A stretch of DNA of 22,549 bases, taken from a virus. Under the pieces are notes generated by a model. It did not search any database, was not told the origin of the DNA, and worked only from the letters and a program-made list of their open reading frames with translations. Where the stretch lies: the IMG/VR virus record IMGVR_UViG_3300008954_000300, positions 1 through 22,549 of that record, one strand, 5' to 3'. The position numbers and the translations under genes were made by a program. Positions within the stretch are counted from its first letter, which is position 1, and every line of letters starts with the position of its first letter. Shown here piece after piece: positions 570-22,515 of the stretch.

Positions 570-1204
570 GTTGTCGCCTTGGGTTTGGGTGTCGTCGCCG
601 GTAGTTGGTAGCGCCACTCTCGCAAGTCGGCCGCGTAGAATTTGGCGGCCAGGTCGGCGGACTCTGGGCAGTAGTAGCCAGTCCAGGCCTTCTTGCCGGG
701 TGATGGGTTCATGTGTGGCAGCGGGCCTAGTGGTGCAAAGGGCGGCCGTAATACGGTCTCCCAGTAATGGGCCAGGCCCTCGAAACGGTAGACGGCCTGC
801 GGTTTCCGCCTGGCGTGGTCAATTAGTAGCTTGGCCGGCCGCCAGTGCCTGTCTACGGTCGCCGGGTCTTGGGTGCAAACCCATCTAGCCCAGTCTAGAA
901 ACGGGGCGTTGGGTGGCAGCGGGCATTTGCCGCGTAGTCGTTTCGCCAGGTCCTTCTGTAGTTTCTCGCAGTAGTTGCTCACCAGTCTATCGAACGGGTG
1001 GCGAACAAAAGTAAACAGCAACCGCGGCCGCCAGTCGTCGGGCACTTGCTCAAATGCGTTATGGCAATGGGCGTGGCCGCCATCTCGCACGGTGTGGCCA
1101 TCGGTCTGCAATAAAGCGGCCTTTATGCTGGTGCAACCGCTCTTTGGCATTTCGATATATTCCAGGCCCGCGGCCTGGCTGACGTATCGGGGCGGGCGCC
1201 TCAT
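566..1204 (-). CDS. PAPS-dependent sulfotransferase
   Basis: This 212-residue protein carries both PAPS-binding signatures of the Sulfotransfer family. The 5'-phosphosulfate loop is MPKSGCTS at residues 19-26. The 3'-phosphate site is FVRHPFDRLVSNY at 66-78. Such enzymes move a sulfuryl group from PAPS to a hydroxyl, most often on a carbohydrate. The reading frame is open further upstream, but I chose ATG 1204 because it overlaps the TGA of the glycosyltransferase gene as ATGA and because the PAPS loop follows about 18 residues later, as usual. The protein is short for the family but contains the core. It has no signal peptide or membrane segment, so it is probably cytoplasmic. Context suggests sulfation of a glycan built by the neighbouring glycosyltransferase. 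The family call is firm; the substrate is inferred. Confidence 0.9.
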   Translation of the reverse strand: MRRPPRYVSQAAGLEYIEMPKSGCTSIKAALLQTDGHTVRDGGHAHCHNAFEQVPDDWRPRLLFTFVRHPFDRLVSNYCEKLQKDLAKRLRGKCPLPPNAPFLDWARWVCTQDPATVDRHWRPAKLLIDHARRKPQAVYRFEGLAHYWETVLRPPFAPLGPLPHMNPSPGKKAWTGYYCPESADLAAKFYAADLREWRYQLPATTPKPKATT

Positions 1205-3228
1205 TGGGCGGCCTCGTCCAGCTTGGGCCAATAGCCTAGCGGGCAGGTCTGGCTGGCTAGTTTCGCCTTGGCGGCCAGGTAGCAACCGCAAACCGCGCAG
1301 CGGGTATTGCGGCGCTGCGTGCAGGTGCTGCAAACCTTTAGCCGGGCCTCTAGCTCATCGGCCGTGCAGGTCTTGCCGGCGCTAAAAGCAAACCCTACCA
1401 GCGCTTTGCCTAGGTTGCCGGCTAGTTCGGTGGCCGGTGGCAGCTGCGGTTTGTCCTCGTCCAGGCGGCCCACCACGGTTAGGCCGTGCTGCTTCTCGGT
1501 GTGGCTGATGACTGACCATTCGGGACTGTCGGCCATGAAATCACGCAACACGGGAAGCAAACCGGGGCCGCCGTCTACGCCTGTTTCGCCGTGGGTCTGG
1601 GTGTCGTGCAGTACGATAAACCGCGAAACACGGGGGCCCCACTTCGCCAGCTGCTCGCGTAGCACTTGGGCGCGGTGTTCGTCGTCGATAAATAGTAAGT
1701 CGGTGGCGTCCTGCGGGCCCTCGGTGTGCGGTCCTTTCTTGCGGTGCGTTATCTCCACGTCTACGCCATCGGCGCGGGCGTACTCAATCGCTCGCGTTAG
1801 AGTCCTGTCGTTTTCGATCTGGTAGCTAACTAGCGCCGCGGGCCTGGCGGATAGTAGCGCTACCGTAGACTCGCGGCGCTTCGTTATTTCGGTGACGTGG
1901 CCAACTTTGCCGGCCAGGTCGCGTAGCGTTGGCAGGTGCTGGTCTAGGTCACGCGGTAGACTGGCCAGAATTGCGTATAGCGCGTCCAGTGTGTCGGCGT
2001 TGTCGAGCTGCTTAGTGGCCTGGCAGCCGCCGCACTTTCTCGGCTGGCCGGTGGCTAGTGGTTCGTCGTTGGTTATCGGGTCGTCGGTTAGGTGTTCCCA
2101 GTTGGCCTGGGTTAGTTGGCCATCTAGAACGAAATGCTCATGGATGGGATCAAGCGATAGGCCTAGTTCGTCAAGTTCTAAGACATAATTGCGGACCTTG
2201 TTATAAAGCGTTAACGGGTAGGGTACGCCATCCGGCCGGCCGAATCGGTGCAGCCACTTTAGCCAGGGTAGGCAGATAGCGCGGCCGCCCTGTTGCCGGT
2301 ATTTCGTGTGAATGTATAGTTCTTCGCCGCCAAACCCTTTGGCGTGTTCATTGAATCCAGGCCAGCTATCTACGCGGGCTGAGAATACGCCTAGCCCGCA
2401 ACCTGGAATAGCGAAGGGCGCGTCGGTGTCTGATTCGCCTAGCGGGTAGAATCCTAGGGCGTGCAGGGCCTGTTGGTGGTTCGCCCATGGCAGGGCCTCG
2501 GGCAGGGCCTGGTCGCAGTTATAGCAAGCCGTGATTGGTACCTGCGTCTCTAGGCTGCGAAACTGCACCACGTCGCCGCCGTCTCCGGTGTGCTGGACGG
2601 TCGCCAGGTGCACGCCTTTGGGCCCGCAATTGCATCGCCAGGCCTTGCCCCAAGTTCCCCACATTTCGCCGCGCCAGGCGTCGTCAAAATGGGTCGTTAC
2701 GTCTTGCGGGCGGGTTTCGCCGCGGCGCATGTGCAAGTAGCCGCGCAGGGTGTCGTAGATAAGCGGGCCGCTGTAAATATCGGCCCGCGGTTCGTCGGTG
2801 TCGTACCAATCCAGCAAGCGGTCTAGCGTGCCGGGTGGCAGCAAGACGTGGCAGTCCATGACAAGAACGGCCGGCGCGGCCGCTTCCTCGAATATCTTCT
2901 GCCGGGTCGCGCTGGTGCCGATGTCGTCTTTAAGGTGCACCACGCGGGCGCCGGCCAGGCCGACTTGGGCAAACTGGTCATCCTGGCCGGCCTCGTCTCG
3001 CCGGTCGTCCCAAGTCTGCGAGTTGGGGTTATACGTGCGGCCGGCCATAGCGCCGTTTATTAGGCCGCCGGCCATCTGGCTATGCGGGCTGCCGATGCTG
3101 TTATCCACCACGATTAGCTCGCAGTGTTGCATGGCCTCGGGGTGGTGTAGCCGCAAACTCTGTAGCGTGAAATAGAGCCCGTGATAGTCGGTATGGTGCG
3201 CCATACCGATGGTTAGCCTAGGCTGCAT
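1201..3228 (-). CDS. Glycosyltransferase / methyltransferase-like / zinc-ribbon fusion
   Basis: The 675 residues fall into three parts. Residues 1-350 are a GT-A glycosyltransferase: LIVVDN at 38-43, a metal-binding DCH at 125-127 in VLVMDCHVLLPPG, and GFGGEE at 298-303 followed by GG at 314-315, P321 and H327. DxH plus this distal block recalls polypeptide GalNAc transferases (GT27), although the family cannot be fixed without a profile search. Residues 415-590 look like a class I methyltransferase of the CmcI type, with DLLFIDDEH at 510-518 and HDTQTHGETG at 541-550. The C-terminus has CSTC (633-636), CAVCGC (644-649) and CP (662-663), a probable zinc ribbon. ATG 3228 has GAGG six bases upstream. 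The gene follows the adhesin and membrane-protein genes and overlaps the sulfotransferase gene, which suggests glycan addition to virion or host surface. Confidence 0.87.
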   Translation of the reverse strand: MQPRLTIGMAHHTDYHGLYFTLQSLRLHHPEAMQHCELIVVDNSIGSPHSQMAGGLINGAMAGRTYNPNSQTWDDRRDEAGQDDQFAQVGLAGARVVHLKDDIGTSATRQKIFEEAAAPAVLVMDCHVLLPPGTLDRLLDWYDTDEPRADIYSGPLIYDTLRGYLHMRRGETRPQDVTTHFDDAWRGEMWGTWGKAWRCNCGPKGVHLATVQHTGDGGDVVQFRSLETQVPITACYNCDQALPEALPWANHQQALHALGFYPLGESDTDAPFAIPGCGLGVFSARVDSWPGFNEHAKGFGGEELYIHTKYRQQGGRAICLPWLKWLHRFGRPDGVPYPLTLYNKVRNYVLELDELGLSLDPIHEHFVLDGQLTQANWEHLTDDPITNDEPLATGQPRKCGGCQATKQLDNADTLDALYAILASLPRDLDQHLPTLRDLAGKVGHVTEITKRRESTVALLSARPAALVSYQIENDRTLTRAIEYARADGVDVEITHRKKGPHTEGPQDATDLLFIDDEHRAQVLREQLAKWGPRVSRFIVLHDTQTHGETGVDGGPGLLPVLRDFMADSPEWSVISHTEKQHGLTVVGRLDEDKPQLPPATELAGNLGKALVGFAFSAGKTCTADELEARLKVCSTCTQRRNTRCAVCGCYLAAKAKLASQTCPLGYWPKLDEAAQ

Positions 3229-3680: not shown

Positions 3681-6059
3681 CTACGGTGGCGGTAGCGTGG
3701 AAGTGCCTTCTGTTACTCCTAGGCCGCTGTTACCGCAGCAGTCGGTTAGCTGCATTTGGTTCGCGTGGCTGCCAGTCCCGCGGGGCCGCCGGCATAGGCT
3801 ACCGTCCTGGCCGCAGCTGCAATTGTCGGTAACCTTTACCCATCGGCCAGGCGCGGGCCATTGCTGCCATAGCCAGGCGCAATGGCCACATGCGTTGGGG
3901 TCGCAGGTGGTGGTGGTGGTCGGGCCGGCCGTGGTGGTGGTGGTGGTGGTCGCGCAGGGGCCACAGTCGCAATTGACGCAGCGGGCGTCCCCGGCGCATG
4001 TCAGCGTACCGTCTAGGCAGCTGTTATAGGTCGATGGGTCCGCGCCCATGCAAACCGCGGCGCTTGGTGGGGTGTCACAGTATACGCCTGTATCTTCGAC
4101 TTCCCACGTTCGGGTTACGATGTTGCAACGGTATTGTATACAGCAATCGTCATCCGCGCAGGTCATGGCCGCGCACGGGGCGCAGGTGGTGGTGGTCGTC
4201 GTGGTGGTACACTCAGTGCTACCGCACGGGCAAGTTATCATTTCGCCTAGGTGTGCGCAGTCGCAGGGGCTGGCCGGTGCTAGGCAGGGGTCTGGCTCAC
4301 CGCAGCAGTTATCAGGTTCTTGCAATTCCCAGTAGGGAAAACAGCCAGGGCCGGCCGTCGTTACGCCAGTGCAGCAACCGGGCGGGCTATCGACGCACTT
4401 CCAAAAACGCTCGCCGCTGCCAGGCGTGCAGGTCGTGGTGGTCGTGGGGCTGCCGGTCGTCGTGGTTGGTCCGCCGGTGCTGGTTGTTGGGGCGGCTGTC
4501 GTGGTGGATGTGCTGGTCGTGGTGGGCTGGCAGGGAATCCAGCGGGTTTCGCAAGCCGCGCCGCCGTCGATGGCCGGGTAGGCGCAATTGCAGCCGGTGC
4601 GGCATAGGTCCTGCACCATAATCCACTCGCTACTGGTGTGCTCCCACTCCCACTTGCACTGATGGCAGTCGCCGGTGGTGGTGGTCGGCTGGCCGGTCGT
4701 CGTCGTGGTCGTTGGGTAGCAGACATTTGCGCAGGGGTCGATAGTGGTAGGCGGGCTGCCGCAGGGCGTGCGTTCGGGGCCGCAGTTGTTGCCGGGTACG
4801 CTCGGCGGCTGGCAGGTGCAATCTATTATGCCGCCACTCTCGCACTGCCAGGTGGTTAACTTCCACTCGCTCGAGTCGGGCAACCACCAGTATTCGCAAT
4901 AGCCCGTGCACCAGGGCGCGGGGGTCGGCGGTGGTGGCGGTGGTGCTACGCAATTGGTGCTCTGGGGCGTGCAATGGTCGCCACCGTCAACGGTCGGACT
5001 CGGGCAAGGGCAGCTGGCCGGGCAACCGTTTAGAATGTTCACCCACCCTAGGCCGCCTAGGTTGTTTGGTAGCCATTGCCAATTACAGCTGCCGCTACAA
5101 TCGTCGGGCGCGTCGGTGGTGGTGGTAGTGGTGCCGCTGCAGTCGCAGGTGGTGGTGGTGGTCGGGCTTACTGTCGTGGTGCTGGTCGTGCCGCAGCTGG
5201 GCGGTACGTTTACCTCTTTCGCGCACCAGGTTATGGTCTTTTCTTGGTCAACCACTCCACAAAATGGCGGGTAGAGGCAATTGCAATCCGCGGTGGTGGT
5301 CGTCGTCGGGCTGCCGGTCGTCGTTGGGCTGGCGGTGGTGGTGGTCGCCGCTTCACAGAAACAGTTGCGCAGGTCGGGCGCGGCCGTGGTGCTAGTGGTG
5401 GTGGTCGCCGCGGCGCAACCGTCGCTACTAATCCGCCAGTAATTGCCGGTTTCCTCCCATAGCCATTCGCACGTCCCATCACACTGCATTCGTGGTACGG
5501 GCTGCCAGGTGGTGGTGGTTAGCAGTGGGTTTATAGTGGTGGTTGCGCTACTGCAGGGGCCCGATAGGACCACTGCGCATAGGTGTAGGCCGGTCGTGCC
5601 GGGCTGCCACAGTATTCGGGTGGTGCCGGTTTCGTTGGACGTAAAATACGTGCTTGCTTCCACCACGTCGCAGCGGGTGTGGCGGGTGTTGGTGATGTTT
5701 ACCCATGCTCGCACCACGCCTGATACCTGCAGCTGGTCGATCCCGTTTTCGGGTATCGGGCGCGTTAGTACGCCATAGCAACCGTTTGGGCCTTTTGGGA
5801 TAGCCGCGGTAAACCATAGATGTCGGGGCTGGAAGACTAGATTATCGCAAACCTCGAGCACTTCGCCGCGGGCCCTGTCGGCGCAGCTATTGTTGCGGGC
5901 CTTTATGGTGTCGGTCGGGTAGTAGTCTGGGTTTGGCCCTCGCTCGTCTCGCAGTTCGCGGCGGCTCTGGTAGTCGTTTAGCGCGTCCTGCAGGGCGTTC
6001 CAATTCCTTGCAGAAATGGAATCAAGGGGCTCGCCTGGCTGGAACTTTTCGCCGGTCAT
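3681..6059 (-). CDS. Thr-rich modular adhesin / tail fibre-like protein with Cys/Trp modules
   Basis: This 792-residue protein is probably a tail-tip or head-surface adhesin. Residues 1-185 form a non-repetitive domain (DSISARNWNALQDALNDY at 13-30) that probably anchors it to the virion. After that, small Cys-rich modules alternate with poly-Thr linkers. Five modules start with C-x(2,3)-C-x-[WY]-x-W at about residues 193, 321, 384, 465 and 724. Each continues with another Trp and, in most, a C-x-C-x(2)-P segment. An irregular Cys-rich section lies at 550-702. Linkers are runs of up to eight Thr, interrupted ten times by T-x-x-P. The high Cys count suggests disulfide-bonded extracellular domains. 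Thr is written mostly as ACC, giving GGT repeats on the plus strand. ATG 6059 directly follows the upstream stop. Receptor binding or carbohydrate binding is inferred, not shown. Confidence 0.85.
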   Translation of the reverse strand: MTGEKFQPGEPLDSISARNWNALQDALNDYQSRRELRDERGPNPDYYPTDTIKARNNSCADRARGEVLEVCDNLVFQPRHLWFTAAIPKGPNGCYGVLTRPIPENGIDQLQVSGVVRAWVNITNTRHTRCDVVEASTYFTSNETGTTRILWQPGTTGLHLCAVVLSGPCSSATTTINPLLTTTTWQPVPRMQCDGTCEWLWEETGNYWRISSDGCAAATTTTSTTAAPDLRNCFCEAATTTTASPTTTGSPTTTTTADCNCLYPPFCGVVDQEKTITWCAKEVNVPPSCGTTSTTTVSPTTTTTCDCSGTTTTTTDAPDDCSGSCNWQWLPNNLGGLGWVNILNGCPASCPCPSPTVDGGDHCTPQSTNCVAPPPPPPTPAPWCTGYCEYWWLPDSSEWKLTTWQCESGGIIDCTCQPPSVPGNNCGPERTPCGSPPTTIDPCANVCYPTTTTTTGQPTTTTGDCHQCKWEWEHTSSEWIMVQDLCRTGCNCAYPAIDGGAACETRWIPCQPTTTSTSTTTAAPTTSTGGPTTTTGSPTTTTTCTPGSGERFWKCVDSPPGCCTGVTTAGPGCFPYWELQEPDNCCGEPDPCLAPASPCDCAHLGEMITCPCGSTECTTTTTTTTCAPCAAMTCADDDCCIQYRCNIVTRTWEVEDTGVYCDTPPSAAVCMGADPSTYNSCLDGTLTCAGDARCVNCDCGPCATTTTTTTAGPTTTTTCDPNACGHCAWLWQQWPAPGRWVKVTDNCSCGQDGSLCRRPRGTGSHANQMQLTDCCGNSGLGVTEGTSTLPPP
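3906..3950. repeat. (GGT)n trinucleotide tracts encoding poly-Thr
   Basis: On the plus strand there are five tandem GGT units at 3906-3920 and six at 3933-3950, separated by a GC-rich spacer. Read on the minus strand they are ACC threonine codons of the adhesin linkers. Slippage would add or remove whole Thr residues without breaking the frame. The G-rich strand could also form G-quadruplex-like structures. Confidence 0.9.
5115..5162. repeat. (GGT)n tracts in adhesin linker coding region
   Basis: Two short GGT runs lie at about 5115-5132 and 5148-5162, separated by a non-repetitive stretch coding for CDCSG. Similar shorter runs occur near 4185-4209, 5290-5300 and 5333-5346. All lie in Thr-linker codons of the adhesin gene. 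Confidence 0.8.
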
Positions 6060-6875: not shown

Positions 6876-8888
6876 TTACGTGCCGCTGAATTGCGGGCCG
6901 CCCTTTCGTCTAATCGCTGCGATGTCGTCGGCCATGTTTTCGCCGGCCTTTCGGTGTTTGGCCACGTCGTTGGCCATTCGTTCTACCGGGCCACCGCCAC
7001 CGCTCGCCAGCCGCTGCAGGGCGGCCGCTGAGAATGTGCCGGCCGTACTGGTCGCCGCCAGGGCGCCGGCTATATCGCCCTCGGCCCCTAGTCCCGTGCC
7101 GCCCGCGGCGGCCTTCGCCACTTCCTTGCGTTTCTTCTCGGCAGCGGCGGCCGCTTTCGATGTCAACTCTTTAAGGCGGGCCCGCTCGGCCTCTAGTTCT
7201 TCTCGGAAAGCCTCCGCGCCTGGTGCGGCTGCGCTGGCCGCGGCCGCGCCGGCCTCGTCTGCGGCCGCTTGGAAACTCAAGACCATATTGTCTAGGTAGT
7301 CGTCGGCCTTCGTCTGTAGGGCCTGCATTTGCTTATCTACGTCCGCCAGGGCCTCGCCCATGGGGTCGCCTTTTATGCCTAGCTTCTGGTTTAGGCGCCT
7401 GGCTCGCTCGGCCTCTGCTTGGATGTCTACGCCTGTGATTTTGTTCATTATCGCGCCGAAGACTCCGCCCTTGCTGGCCTTCGTTAGTAATGACTTCGCC
7501 AGGCCGCCCACTGCGGTTGTCCAGACTTCAACCACTCGCTTGGCCATCTTCGCCGCGGTGCCTACCGTCCAGGCCGCAAACTGGGCCCATGCTTTGCCTA
7601 GGCCCTTCATGGCAATATCCCACGCCTTGGAAATATCGCCGCGACTAAGGGCGCCCGCTATTCCGTCAAAAATAACTTTCCACTCGCCGGTGATTAGGTT
7701 GCTAATTCCGGCCATGCCCTCGAGCCACACCACGTATAGGCCCTGTACGGCTATCTGGCCAGCTAGGGCCAGGTCGCCGCCACTTATCGCGTCTACGATG
7801 CCTTTGATGGTGGTTTTTACGGTCTCGAAAATCTGGCCGAAAGTCTCTTTAATCTGTGCCATTACCTTCTGGCCGCTGGCCGTAAACTTCGCCCATGCCA
7901 CCACGGCCGCCACCAGGGCCGCCACCACTAGGCCCGCGGGTGATATTAGCAAGGTTAGGGCCGTGCCGATGAATCCGATGGCCGTGGCTATCGCTGAGAA
8001 TCCTAGGCCTAGGGTAACCGCGGCTATTCCCACGCCTGAAATAGCCGCGCCGGCCACCACTAGGCCGGCGCCTATCGCTGCGATGGTCAAGACTAGTGAC
8101 TTGTTTTCTCTGATCCACCGGCCTGCCGCCACCGCAATACCCTGCACCAGGTCTAGGGCCTGCAGTACCGCGGGCGCCAGGGCCGCGCCGATTTCAAATA
8201 CGGTCGCGGTTAGGGTGGCCTTGAGTCGTCCGATAGCGTCGGTTACCGCTGCGGCCGCTGCGGCCTGGTCGCCGGTCTTCGATAGGCCTAGGTCGCGGGC
8301 CTCTTTGCGCAGTGCTTTGATTCCGTCTACGCCCTGATTAAGGAAGGGTGTAATAGCCTTGGCTTCGTCGCCAAATACTTCAAACGCCAGTTGCGCCCGC
8401 CGGCCAGGGTTTTCTACGCCTTCCAGCGCTCCCACCAGCGCATATAGCCGGTCCTCGCCTCCCATGTTGGCCAGGTCGGTTGCGCTTAGGTTCAACTCGT
8501 CCAGCGCTCGCACGGCCGGGCCGGTGCCGGTGGCTGCGTTCGCTATTCGCCTGGTGCTCCTAAATAGCACGTTTCCTAGCTGGTCTATATTCGTGCCGGT
8601 GGCGTTCGCTACGTGCTCGAGTTCCGATAGAGCACTAACGGATAGCCTGGTCCGGTTCGACATTTTATCTAGCTTGTCGCCGGCGGCCGCAAAGTGGGCC
8701 ACCGCTGCCGATAGCGGCGCTAGTAGGGCCGCGCCGGCGCCCGATACTCCGGCGCCAGCTACCATGGCCGATTTCCCCCATGACTGCAGCCGTTTGCCGG
8801 CCTGGTTTAGGCCTTTAGATAGCGCGTTCTGCTTTACGAATAGTTCGACATAGGCGCGGCCGGCGCTGATGTCTTTTCTACCGGCCAT
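6876..8888 (-). CDS. Tail tape measure protein
   Basis: At 670 residues this is the longest tail gene. It has the expected composition: Ala/Gly-rich helical N-terminal half, several hydrophobic helices at about residues 265-340 (for example LVLTIAAIGAGLVVAGAAIS), and an Ala/Lys/Glu coiled-coil region near 530-600. Tape measure proteins set siphovirus tail length and are ejected with the DNA. At roughly 1.5 angstrom per residue the tail would be near 100 nm, which is an inference from a general rule. The start overlaps the end of the tail chaperone frame by 11 bases. AAGGG lies about nine bases upstream of ATG 8888. No lysozyme or peptidase motif was noticed inside. Confidence 0.93.
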   Translation of the reverse strand: MAGRKDISAGRAYVELFVKQNALSKGLNQAGKRLQSWGKSAMVAGAGVSGAGAALLAPLSAAVAHFAAAGDKLDKMSNRTRLSVSALSELEHVANATGTNIDQLGNVLFRSTRRIANAATGTGPAVRALDELNLSATDLANMGGEDRLYALVGALEGVENPGRRAQLAFEVFGDEAKAITPFLNQGVDGIKALRKEARDLGLSKTGDQAAAAAAVTDAIGRLKATLTATVFEIGAALAPAVLQALDLVQGIAVAAGRWIRENKSLVLTIAAIGAGLVVAGAAISGVGIAAVTLGLGFSAIATAIGFIGTALTLLISPAGLVVAALVAAVVAWAKFTASGQKVMAQIKETFGQIFETVKTTIKGIVDAISGGDLALAGQIAVQGLYVVWLEGMAGISNLITGEWKVIFDGIAGALSRGDISKAWDIAMKGLGKAWAQFAAWTVGTAAKMAKRVVEVWTTAVGGLAKSLLTKASKGGVFGAIMNKITGVDIQAEAERARRLNQKLGIKGDPMGEALADVDKQMQALQTKADDYLDNMVLSFQAAADEAGAAAASAAAPGAEAFREELEAERARLKELTSKAAAAAEKKRKEVAKAAAGGTGLGAEGDIAGALAATSTAGTFSAAALQRLASGGGGPVERMANDVAKHRKAGENMADDIAAIRRKGGPQFSGT

Positions 8889-9369
8889 GGTTCGGCCCTT
8901 TGTCCTTTAGTATTCCCAATTGGCCGCGGGCGTTCTCTACCGCGGTTTTCATGGCCTCGCCGTCGTAGTCGTCTGCGTCTGGTGCGGCTGGTCCTAGGTG
9001 GCCGCAACGTACAAACTCGGCCAGCTGATCCGATGTAGCGCCGCCAAATAAAGCCAGGGCCACCAGGTTAGCCTGGGCCACAACGTGGCCGCGGGCGGCC
9101 TGCTGGCTGGCCGTCCGCATAACGTGCAATTCGCGTAGGGTTAGCCCGCGGGGGCTGATTCTGAGTTCTCCGGCATAGGTGTAACAGAGTGTAACCGGGT
9201 CAACTGGGTTTGCACCGCGGAATCCATCGCGCGGGCCATCTCGGTCCGCACTTGTTCTTCTAGCTTCGTCGAATTTACTTTGTCTATCGCCATCTCTAGG
9301 CCCATCGTCTGTATTTTCTGCGTCTTCTGGCAAAGGGCTCGCCATAAGGATCTGCGCCGCGGTGGGGTA
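8878..9369 (-). CDS. Tail assembly chaperone, GT-type -1 frame extension
   Basis: This frame lies -1 relative to the upstream chaperone gene and runs to the tape-measure start, as the T extension does in lambda G/GT. It is open from well upstream of 9375. If ribosomes slip at 9375-9369, 163 residues are added and the fusion is 266 residues, close to lambda gpGT in size. Its most protein-like part starts near TLCYTYAGELRI and includes LTLRELHVMRTASQQAARGH and LVALALFGGATSDQLAEF. The beginning overlaps the G frame and is hydrophilic (about residues 15-55 of the extension). Separate translation from ATG 9345 is possible, but I see no good ribosome site there. The protein would bind the tape measure during tail assembly. 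Confidence 0.75.
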   Translation of the reverse strand, partial: YPTAAQILMASPLPEDAENTDDGPRDGDRQSKFDEARRTSADRDGPRDGFRGANPVDPVTLCYTYAGELRISPRGLTLRELHVMRTASQQAARGHVVAQANLVALALFGGATSDQLAEFVRCGHLGPAAPDADDYDGEAMKTAVENARGQLGILKDKGPNHGR

Positions 9370-9677
9370 AAATTTTCGATGGCGTCCAGTAGCGCCATAT
9401 ATGCGTTGTCGAGCACTTCGCCGGGGCCTAATGACTTGGCGAAGGCCGCCGCGTTTACGCCTTTGGTTTCGCACTGGTCTAGTAGCAGGCAGTGCAGAAC
9501 GTCAACTTGTAGCACTAGGTCTGCGTCTAGCCGCTGCCAGGCGGTGGGGTCGGTGATGTTGGCCAGGTCTAGGTCGTAGGTTTCTCGCACTCGCTGAATC
9601 ATTACCGCGTCTAGCGTGAGGTCCCACTGCTCGCCGTGCGCGTCGGTGTATACGGGGGTCGGTGTTCTGTCGTCCAT
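9141..9677 (-). CDS. Tail assembly chaperone, G-type
   Basis: The 178-residue acidic to neutral helical protein sits between the tail tube region and the tape measure, the position of lambda gpG. Its N-terminus (VYTDAHGEQWDLTLDAVMIQ) and the following helical region match the usual look of G-type chaperones, which bind the tape measure before tube assembly. Its 3' half overlaps an open -1 frame, and an A AAT TTT slippery heptamer lies at residues 102-103. The gene ends with TAA at 9141. ATG 9677 follows the upstream stop by seven bases, with AGGCGAG just before it. Role is from position and frame arrangement; family similarity by eye is weak. Confidence 0.75.
   Translation of the reverse strand: MDDRTPTPVYTDAHGEQWDLTLDAVMIQRVRETYDLDLANITDPTAWQRLDADLVLQVDVLHCLLLDQCETKGVNAAAFAKSLGPGEVLDNAYMALLDAIENFTPPRRRSLWRALCQKTQKIQTMGLEMAIDKVNSTKLEEQVRTEMARAMDSAVQTQLTRLHSVTPMPENSESAPAG
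9369..9375 (-). promoter_or_regulatory. Candidate -1 ribosomal slippery site A AAT TTT
   Basis: Reading the minus strand in the G frame, codons are GAA AAT TTT ACC. The heptamer A AAT TTT fits X XXY YYZ, and a -1 slip re-pairs on AAA TTT, then reads TAC into the T frame. It is the only perfect fit I found in the overlap. It lies well before the G stop, unlike lambda, where the slip is near the 3' end. Confidence 0.5.
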
Positions 9678-21945: not shown

Positions 21946-22509
21946 TTATTCCACGTAGGGCCCTTTTCTGGCGAATAGTACCACCACGGTGCGGTGGCCC
22001 TTTTCGACGGGCAGCGCTTCGTGGCGTGCTGCTCGGCCGGTGTTCCGCCACCACGTAAACCACCCTAGCTTCGGGTGCACGGCCGGCCAGCCGTTTTCTG
22101 GGAAGTATAGGCCGCCACCGTCGTGGCTGTCTGAAATAGCAACCACCGCCGTAAACTTCCGCGGGCCGCCATGGGCCTGCATCTGCTCGGCGCTGGCGGG
22201 GTCTTGCGGGTTATCGTTGTGCAATCCGTAATACTCGCCGCGGCCGTAGTTGACCATCTGTGCCGGTTCAATGTGGGCCAGGGGTAGCCCGCAAAGATCC
22301 GCAAACCGCTGGCGCAGTGCTGTAACCACGGCCGGCGGTTGGGTAATGTCGCCGCTTCGGCTGCGTCGGTAGTGCGGGCGTGGTGCAGGCCCGCGGGGCG
22401 TTCGCACGGTGGAAGTAGGCAGCTGGCTGGGTGGGTTCGCTGCGAGAATGGCCGCGGCCTCTGCGGGGCTTAGTGCGCCGGGGTTCTCGTATATCGGGAA
22501 AGTCGCCAC
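21946..22509 (-). CDS. 2-oxoglutarate/Fe(II) oxygenase, prolyl 4-hydroxylase-like
   Basis: The 187-residue protein has a P4H-type double-stranded beta-helix core. The approach YGRGEYYGLH leads to the iron ligands H-N-D (His97 and Asp99), the distal His is in RHEALPV (His163), and an Arg (Arg173, GHRTVVVLF) replaces the common Lys that binds 2-oxoglutarate. These enzymes hydroxylate proline or other residues using O2 and 2-oxoglutarate. AGGAGG at 22522-22517 directly abuts ATG 22515 but lies seven bases from GTG 22509, so I prefer GTG; the difference is two residues. Substrate is unknown; Pro-containing Thr linkers of this phage are a speculative target. Confidence 0.85.
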   Translation of the reverse strand: MATFPIYENPGALSPAEAAAILAANPPSQLPTSTVRTPRGPAPRPHYRRSRSGDITQPPAVVTALRQRFADLCGLPLAHIEPAQMVNYGRGEYYGLHNDNPQDPASAEQMQAHGGPRKFTAVVAISDSHDGGGLYFPENGWPAVHPKLGWFTWWRNTGRAARHEALPVEKGHRTVVVLFARKGPYVE

Positions 22510-22515
22510 CGCCAT

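Follow-up and report, generated by a model that had tools for sequence, protein, structure and literature searches.

Introduction

The central paper on the conserved frameshifts of phage tail genes G and T is that of Xu, Hendrix and Duda from 2004. According to a review, the shift of lambda is located near the 3′ end of G (PMC5009743). In the tail gene system E/E+E′ of phage P2, a −1 shift has been described at six consecutive T residues, with E′ reaching just 37 nt back into E and the double-read stretch being short (PMC3931495). For the Bacillus phage SPP1, bioinformatics led to the proposal of a putative −1 shift within the gene, at UUUUUUC; the published description gives 173 aa for gp17.5 and 297 aa for gp17.5*, with the first 112 residues in common and about 61 codons after the shift (PMC6316719). 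SD-like sequences at a spacing of 9–14 nt are named among the stimulators of −1 frameshifting (PMC5009743).

Here, a G/T locus is described in which the slip site is predicted to lie in the middle of G. The locus is part of a 22,549-nucleotide stretch of viral DNA, referred to below as the window, and was compared with a family of related loci. On comparative evidence, the best supported reading is a mid-gene −1 shift at the heptamer A_AAT_TTT, through which one gene would yield both G and GT; we put its probability at about 0.92.

The Locus and Its Reading Frames

G, the predicted tail assembly chaperone gene, occupies positions 9677–9141 on the minus strand, starts with ATG, encodes 178 aa and ends in its own frame with TAA at 9143–9141. 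The T frame is open from 9504 to 8881 on the same strand, with a stop codon at 8880–8878, and its phase of −1 relative to G is as originally predicted. The two overlapping frames stand directly before the tail tape measure gene (6876–8888, minus strand; phrog_8462 tape measure, E 8.9e-33), which overlaps the end of T. On the upstream side are genes for a portal of the lambda family, an S49 protease and a terminase of the GpA type; together with the tape measure gene downstream, they identify the region as the tail region of a tailed phage.

The sole perfect in-frame X_XXY_YYZ heptamer in G is A_AAT_TTT at 9375–9369 (minus strand), which spans codons N102–F103 and contains U_UUU at 9372–9369. 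The original prediction had placed the site at these residues, 75 codons from the G stop, and had noticed no perfect heptamer near the end of G; both points are borne out. The codons directly 3′ of the slip codon are ACC CCA (9363–9368, minus strand). From 9369 to 9144 the minus strand is open in two frames, frame 0 encoding what are modelled as the C-terminal helices of G, and frame −1 a stop-free linker followed by the start of T. The T-frame portion of the predicted fusion (9369–8878, minus strand) comprises 163 codons before the stop at 8880–8878; added to the 103 residues from G, these give 266 residues, the length first proposed.

By itself, the heptamer is weak evidence and not significant: a count over 18 genes of the window gave 14 in-frame heptamers for 6157 codon positions, so that 0.28 would be expected by chance in the 121-codon overlap. 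TTT is also common in the window's own genes, where it accounts for 72 of 143 Phe codons, so that the codon argument depends on the family. The heptamer is significant because it occupies the same alignment column as a site that 77 of the 78 family members retain.

Several other reading frames of the window, all on the minus strand, can be described. A frame at 566–1333 carries a sulfotransferase domain (PF03567, E 3e-13), and one at 21946–22515 encodes a 2OG-Fe(II) oxygenase domain protein (PF13640, E 6.9e-9). The product of 1201–3228 has a Glycosyltransferase 2 domain and, at its C-terminus, a cysteine-rich part with a weak DUF6171 match. The frame at 3681–6059 encodes a 792-aa protein with many threonine runs and many cysteines and no Pfam match, a candidate tail fibre or surface protein.

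Relatives of the Locus

Relatives were collected with a degenerate DNA pattern over G residues 15–31, which returned at least 120 loci, 9 of which were dropped as having no reading frame that extended 90 codons beyond the pattern. From the 112 genes left, the window included, 14 that were incomplete, spurious or too short after G and 20 near-duplicates were removed, leaving a sample of 78 distinct complete G/T genes, again with the window (at least 78 are present in the collection). The window G is at most 36% identical to the rest of this set. The T motif lies in the −1 frame in all 78 genes, 71 being recognized by regular expression and 7 by eye. A second scan used a pattern with a different Arg codon, with four predictions fixed beforehand. 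It yielded 25 loci, of which 17 are G homologues by profile and 8 fall below the profile cut-off; 12 are non-identical, a number that includes close mutual relatives and was not filtered against the first 78.

Other searches were less productive. Searches of viral contigs for related loci with G, T, capsid and portal returned near-identical contigs only, and T and capsid searches of genome contigs gave no relatives. In tblastn searches, the window G and T had no match in annotated phages, and G had two matches in plasmids, both with E 6. The family members L198 and L260 gave no match or E 4 only against annotated phages, and L198 gave none against plasmids. With the window G, L198 and L260 as queries, the large G family seen in environmental phage contigs (L183–L302, L303–L327) produced no convincing hit among 50,697 annotated phage records. 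A portal-profile scan, with 80 loci kept (79 at 20–27% identity), contained no usable G/T relatives. A tape-measure-profile scan, likewise with 80 loci kept, contained G/T genes not detectably related to ours and was used for the comparison of overlap lengths only. A profile comparison of G with one G group from the tape-measure-scan and named-phage comparison loci was not significant.

The G and T Proteins

G, kin to the other 77 G genes of the sample, was modelled with AlphaFold2 from 48 sequences at a mean pLDDT of 92.5. In the model, a helix at residues 87–103 ends at the slip codon and is followed by two long helices, predicted at 106–135 and 137–163. The best match of the model among predicted viral structures is an annotated tail assembly chaperone, at a weak E of 0.012; against solved structures, model and profile gave weak rows only. 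Among 48 members each, the G family has one weak Pfam match and one weak PHROG match.

The conserved T domain spans 8881–9204 on the minus strand in the conservation profile of 71 genes, with the motif LTLREL at 9144–9127. Of 46 family T domains, 27 match Pfam PF06223 Phage_tail_T (E up to 0.01; best 5.7e-6), and 7 match phrog_5297 ‘tail protein’. PF06223 (minor tail protein T) is the family of lambda T. The T domain is related, at the level of the family, to known phage T proteins. The window's own T has no match to PF06223 and is linked to it through the family member L267, with which it shares 39% identity over 76. The T model is confident over its first 40 or so residues. Weak rows were all that it gave against predicted viral structures, and the T profile gave no rows against solved structures.

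Conservation of the Predicted Slip Site

In the protein alignment, all 78 genes place the Phe codon of the site in a single column, that of F103 of the window. Within the overlap, U_UUY is conserved at this site in 77 of 78 genes; the same number have T immediately before the Phe codon, against 7.9% third-base T upstream in the same genes. The Phe codon is TTT in 64 genes and TTC in 14, compared with 21 TTT among 136 upstream Phe codons. The variants found are T_TTT_TTC (51 genes), T_TTC_TGC (13), T_TTT_TCC (7) and T_TTT_ACC (3, including the window), the others being single. U_UUU_UCC is also a natural shift site in a fungus, according to the review (PMC5009743). The codon after the slip Phe codon ends in C in 78/78 and the next base is C in 77/78, giving NNC C in the relatives where the window has ACC CCA; in one E. 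coli study cited in the review, CC 3′ of a shift site was the pair most prone to shifting (PMC5009743).

A perfect heptamer is present at the site, or within one codon of it, in 58 of 78 genes. The remaining 20, among them 11 of the 13 U_UUC_UGC genes, have none, and slippage there would depend on the P-site codon alone. Heptamers recur across the family at −3, 0 and +3 nt only (10, 51 and 43 genes), all overlapping the site; at any other position they occur in two genes at most. In the four AAT variants (the window, L202, L206 and L285), AAT is preceded by A every time, which creates a perfect A_AAT_TTT, the frequency of third-base A being 6% upstream in the family and 19% in the window genes.

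In the second scan, T_TTT occupies the site at all 17 loci (12 non-identical), and 15 of the 17 showed the T motif in the −1 frame. AAT variants, for which a preceding A had been predicted, did not turn up among these 17 homologues.

L257, which reads GAA TTT GCC CCA, is alone in the family in having no U ahead of the Phe codon; in this gene, AAT TTT recurs shortly before the end of G, perhaps as a relocated shift site.

Stop Codons and Conservation in the Two Frames

Across the 78 genes, stop codons in the −1 frame number 45 in 2340 codons over the 30 codons upstream of the site. Downstream, there are none in the first 30 codons (0/2340) and none beyond, up to the G stop (0/2720), making 0 in 5060. 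The +1 frame, taken as a control over the same three stretches, has 57/2340, 88/2340 and 73/2642. In 2000 synonymous shuffles of the stretch from the site to the T domain, 39.6 ± 4.7 stops were expected and the lowest count was 24, against 0 observed. This outcome persists after reduction to one gene per 70, 50 or 40% identity cluster (48, 25 and 11 genes), where 23.8, 14.7 and 8.1 stops were expected and none was seen each time; for the 11 genes at 40%, the expectation was 8.1 ± 2.1 and the lowest of 1000 shuffles had 2. Upstream of the site, 108 stops were counted in the −1 frame, compared with 146 ± 8.6 expected from shuffles. Part of the avoidance is therefore a mild general bias, and the fall to zero is not. 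In three genes, L184 and L273 among them, the −1 frame is closed by a stop in the codon immediately 5′ of the site, which means that a shift there would have to take place at the site or later. At the second-scan loci, the −1 frame has no stop from the site to 60 nt past the G stop in 17/17.

In a positional profile of 71 genes, the codon structure is that of the G frame until about 8 codons before the Ala-Gly of the T motif and that of the T frame afterwards. Sequence conservation in the T frame begins at about 9200, and the stretch from 9369 to about 9200 is conserved in the G frame. The T-frame linker is stop-free and without sequence conservation, G, R, A, P, E and D together making up 79% of it. 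The window also differs at nine positions from the near-identical contig L005, just one of which lies inside G; this change, at 9339, is silent in G and converts Ser to Gly in T. Together with the conservation of the G frame, it makes G look like the selected product here. Between the site and the T domain, selection thus appears to act on the G product, with the linker merely kept open. The original prediction had counted it against the shift if T were conserved only beyond about 9215. Conservation does start that late, yet the shift is not refuted by it, because the linker need only be stop-free, and is.

Candidate Stimulatory Elements

An SD-like element 5′ of the site is frequent in the family. 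GGAGG is located exactly 10 nt upstream in 39 of 78 genes, and some SD-like sequence occurs within 22 nt of the site, at various spacings, in 59. In the relatives, part of these GGAGG occurrences may reflect Glu-Glu codons within a conserved motif. The window has no SD-like element 5′ of its site, and none at the dnaX-type distance of 9–14 nt. No unusually stable RNA structure follows the site in the window, the folding z over the following 54 nt being +1.5; the family mean is −0.8 to −0.9 for folding windows starting at the end of the site or shortly upstream of it, and the value is positive in the window. For the main class of 51 sequences, no conserved downstream RNA pairing was predicted.

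Alternative Explanations

One alternative is a late shift, near the start of the T domain at about 9200 and at a non-canonical site, with the heptamer a by-product of the codons for a conserved (V/I)DFFP motif. The conservation profile first suggested a late shift near the T domain, a reading overturned by the distribution of −1-frame stops. The late start of T-frame conservation and the fading of G-frame conservation only at about 9200 both speak for it, as does the usual position of slip sites in tail chaperone genes, near the G stop, with a mean of 26 nt reported for the SEA-PHAGES training set (PMC10885494). A late shift, however, would not need a −1 frame that is stop-free from the middle of the gene, as it is in 78/78, and heptamers recur only in overlap with the mid-gene site. 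Nor would a by-product of protein sequence fix a wobble T together with TTT: among 12 nearby Phe codons outside the site in the non-identical second-scan loci, 9 are TTC and 11 have no preceding T. We therefore regard this explanation as very improbable.

There is even less reason to expect that T is translated separately, either by restart after G or from an internal start, for which the window offers ATG at 9345, TTG at 9333 and GTG at 9474. The in-frame ATG at 9345 favours such a start in the window; it and the TTG, the two that lie between the site and the T domain, have no SD-like sequence. Over this interval, the T frame contains none of the codons ATG, GTG and TTG in 62 of 78 genes and lacks ATG in 76, and an SD-like sequence before such a start codon is found in one gene of the 78, L205. 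Separate translation would, moreover, leave unexplained both U_UUY and a stop avoidance that begins at the site. The original prediction had left the choice between an early shift and an independent start of T; the early shift gains support from the single alignment column and from the disappearance of stops at that point, and the independent start becomes unlikely given the scarcity of start codons. The least credible of the explanations, with hardly any chance of being right, is that RNA polymerase, and not the ribosome, changes the frame by slipping on the T run. TTTTTTC at the site in 51 of 78 genes would suit it, but the window and L206 have four T only (AAATTTTACC) and 13 genes have TTTCTGC. 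Such short T runs are not expected to cause polymerase slippage. The codon phase is also kept, with T at the wobble position of the codon preceding Phe in 77 of 78 genes.

Model of a Probable Mid-Gene Shift

Under the mid-gene −1 shift, most ribosomes would translate G through to its stop at 9141. A minority, we infer, would slip back by one base on A_AAT_TTT, or on the U_UUU within it, at 9375–9369. Reading on in the −1 frame would produce a GT of 266 residues, consisting of G residues 1–103, a loose linker of about 55 residues and the T domain. By analogy with lambda, coating of the tape measure protein would fall to the shared G part and recruitment of the tail tube protein to the T domain. 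The comparison shows the frames, the homology, the conservation of the site and the avoidance of stops; the slippage itself, its rate and the roles of both proteins are inferred. As the slip would fall mid-gene, at the end of a helix in the G model, GT would probably have neither of the two long C-terminal helices (residues 106–163). This raises the question of why G, and not GT, carries them.

A broader proposal can be put forward tentatively, at somewhat less than even odds. The frameshift would here swap the end of the protein rather than lengthen it, 46–88 codons would be open in two frames across a broad group of phages, and about a quarter of the genes (20/78) would slip by means of one P-site Phe-tRNA. 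The family could serve as a natural test of what −1 slippage requires in GC-rich phages.

Comparison with Known Systems

In the family, the slip site is followed by 46–88 codons before the G stop, with a median of 65 and 75 in the window, and does not lie near the 3′ end of G. For comparison, 82 other G/T-like pairs located by related tape measure genes, from the tape-measure scan and two named-phage locus groups, were picked by a mechanical rule, are not deduplicated and include 8 outside the −1 frame; their T frame reaches back from the G stop by less than 138 nt in 74 pairs and by more, up to 290 nt, in 8. PRFect, a program built for such frameshifts, takes the distance to the G stop into account as a feature, and in one test set 2 of 43 cases exceeded 51 nt (PMC10885494). 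With such a feature, and with long distances so rare, mid-gene sites tend to be missed; GT would then appear in annotations as two separate genes or with an incorrect junction. The site had originally been called atypically early. That description holds against most published cases; it does not hold against SPP1 17.5, for which the same arrangement is reported (PMC6316719). Among the literature matches listed, there was nothing on this G/T family and one precedent, that of SPP1.

The locus resembles lambda G/GT in that the tape measure gene is preceded by G and a −1-frame T, and in the PF06223 matches of 27 of the 46 family T domains. It differs in that lambda shifts near the end of G, whereas the family is predicted to shift well within the gene and to make a GT without the C-terminal helices. 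Phage P2 likewise offers a −1 shift in a tail gene, on six T residues, and the short reach of its E′ sets it apart from the long double-read stretch of the family. The SD-like element described upstream of the slippery site of E. coli dnaX (PMC5009743) has its counterpart in 59 of 78 family members; dnaX differs in its A_AAA_AAG site and in not being a phage tail gene, and the window has no such element. SPP1 gp17.5/gp17.5*, with its putative −1 shift inside the gene, is alike in its described arrangement, the shift there being itself proposed by bioinformatics; the window has A_AAT_TTT in place of UUUUUUC (PMC6316719). With SPP1 as a precedent, the present finding is a well-supported and widely conserved variant of G/GT rather than a new kind of system.
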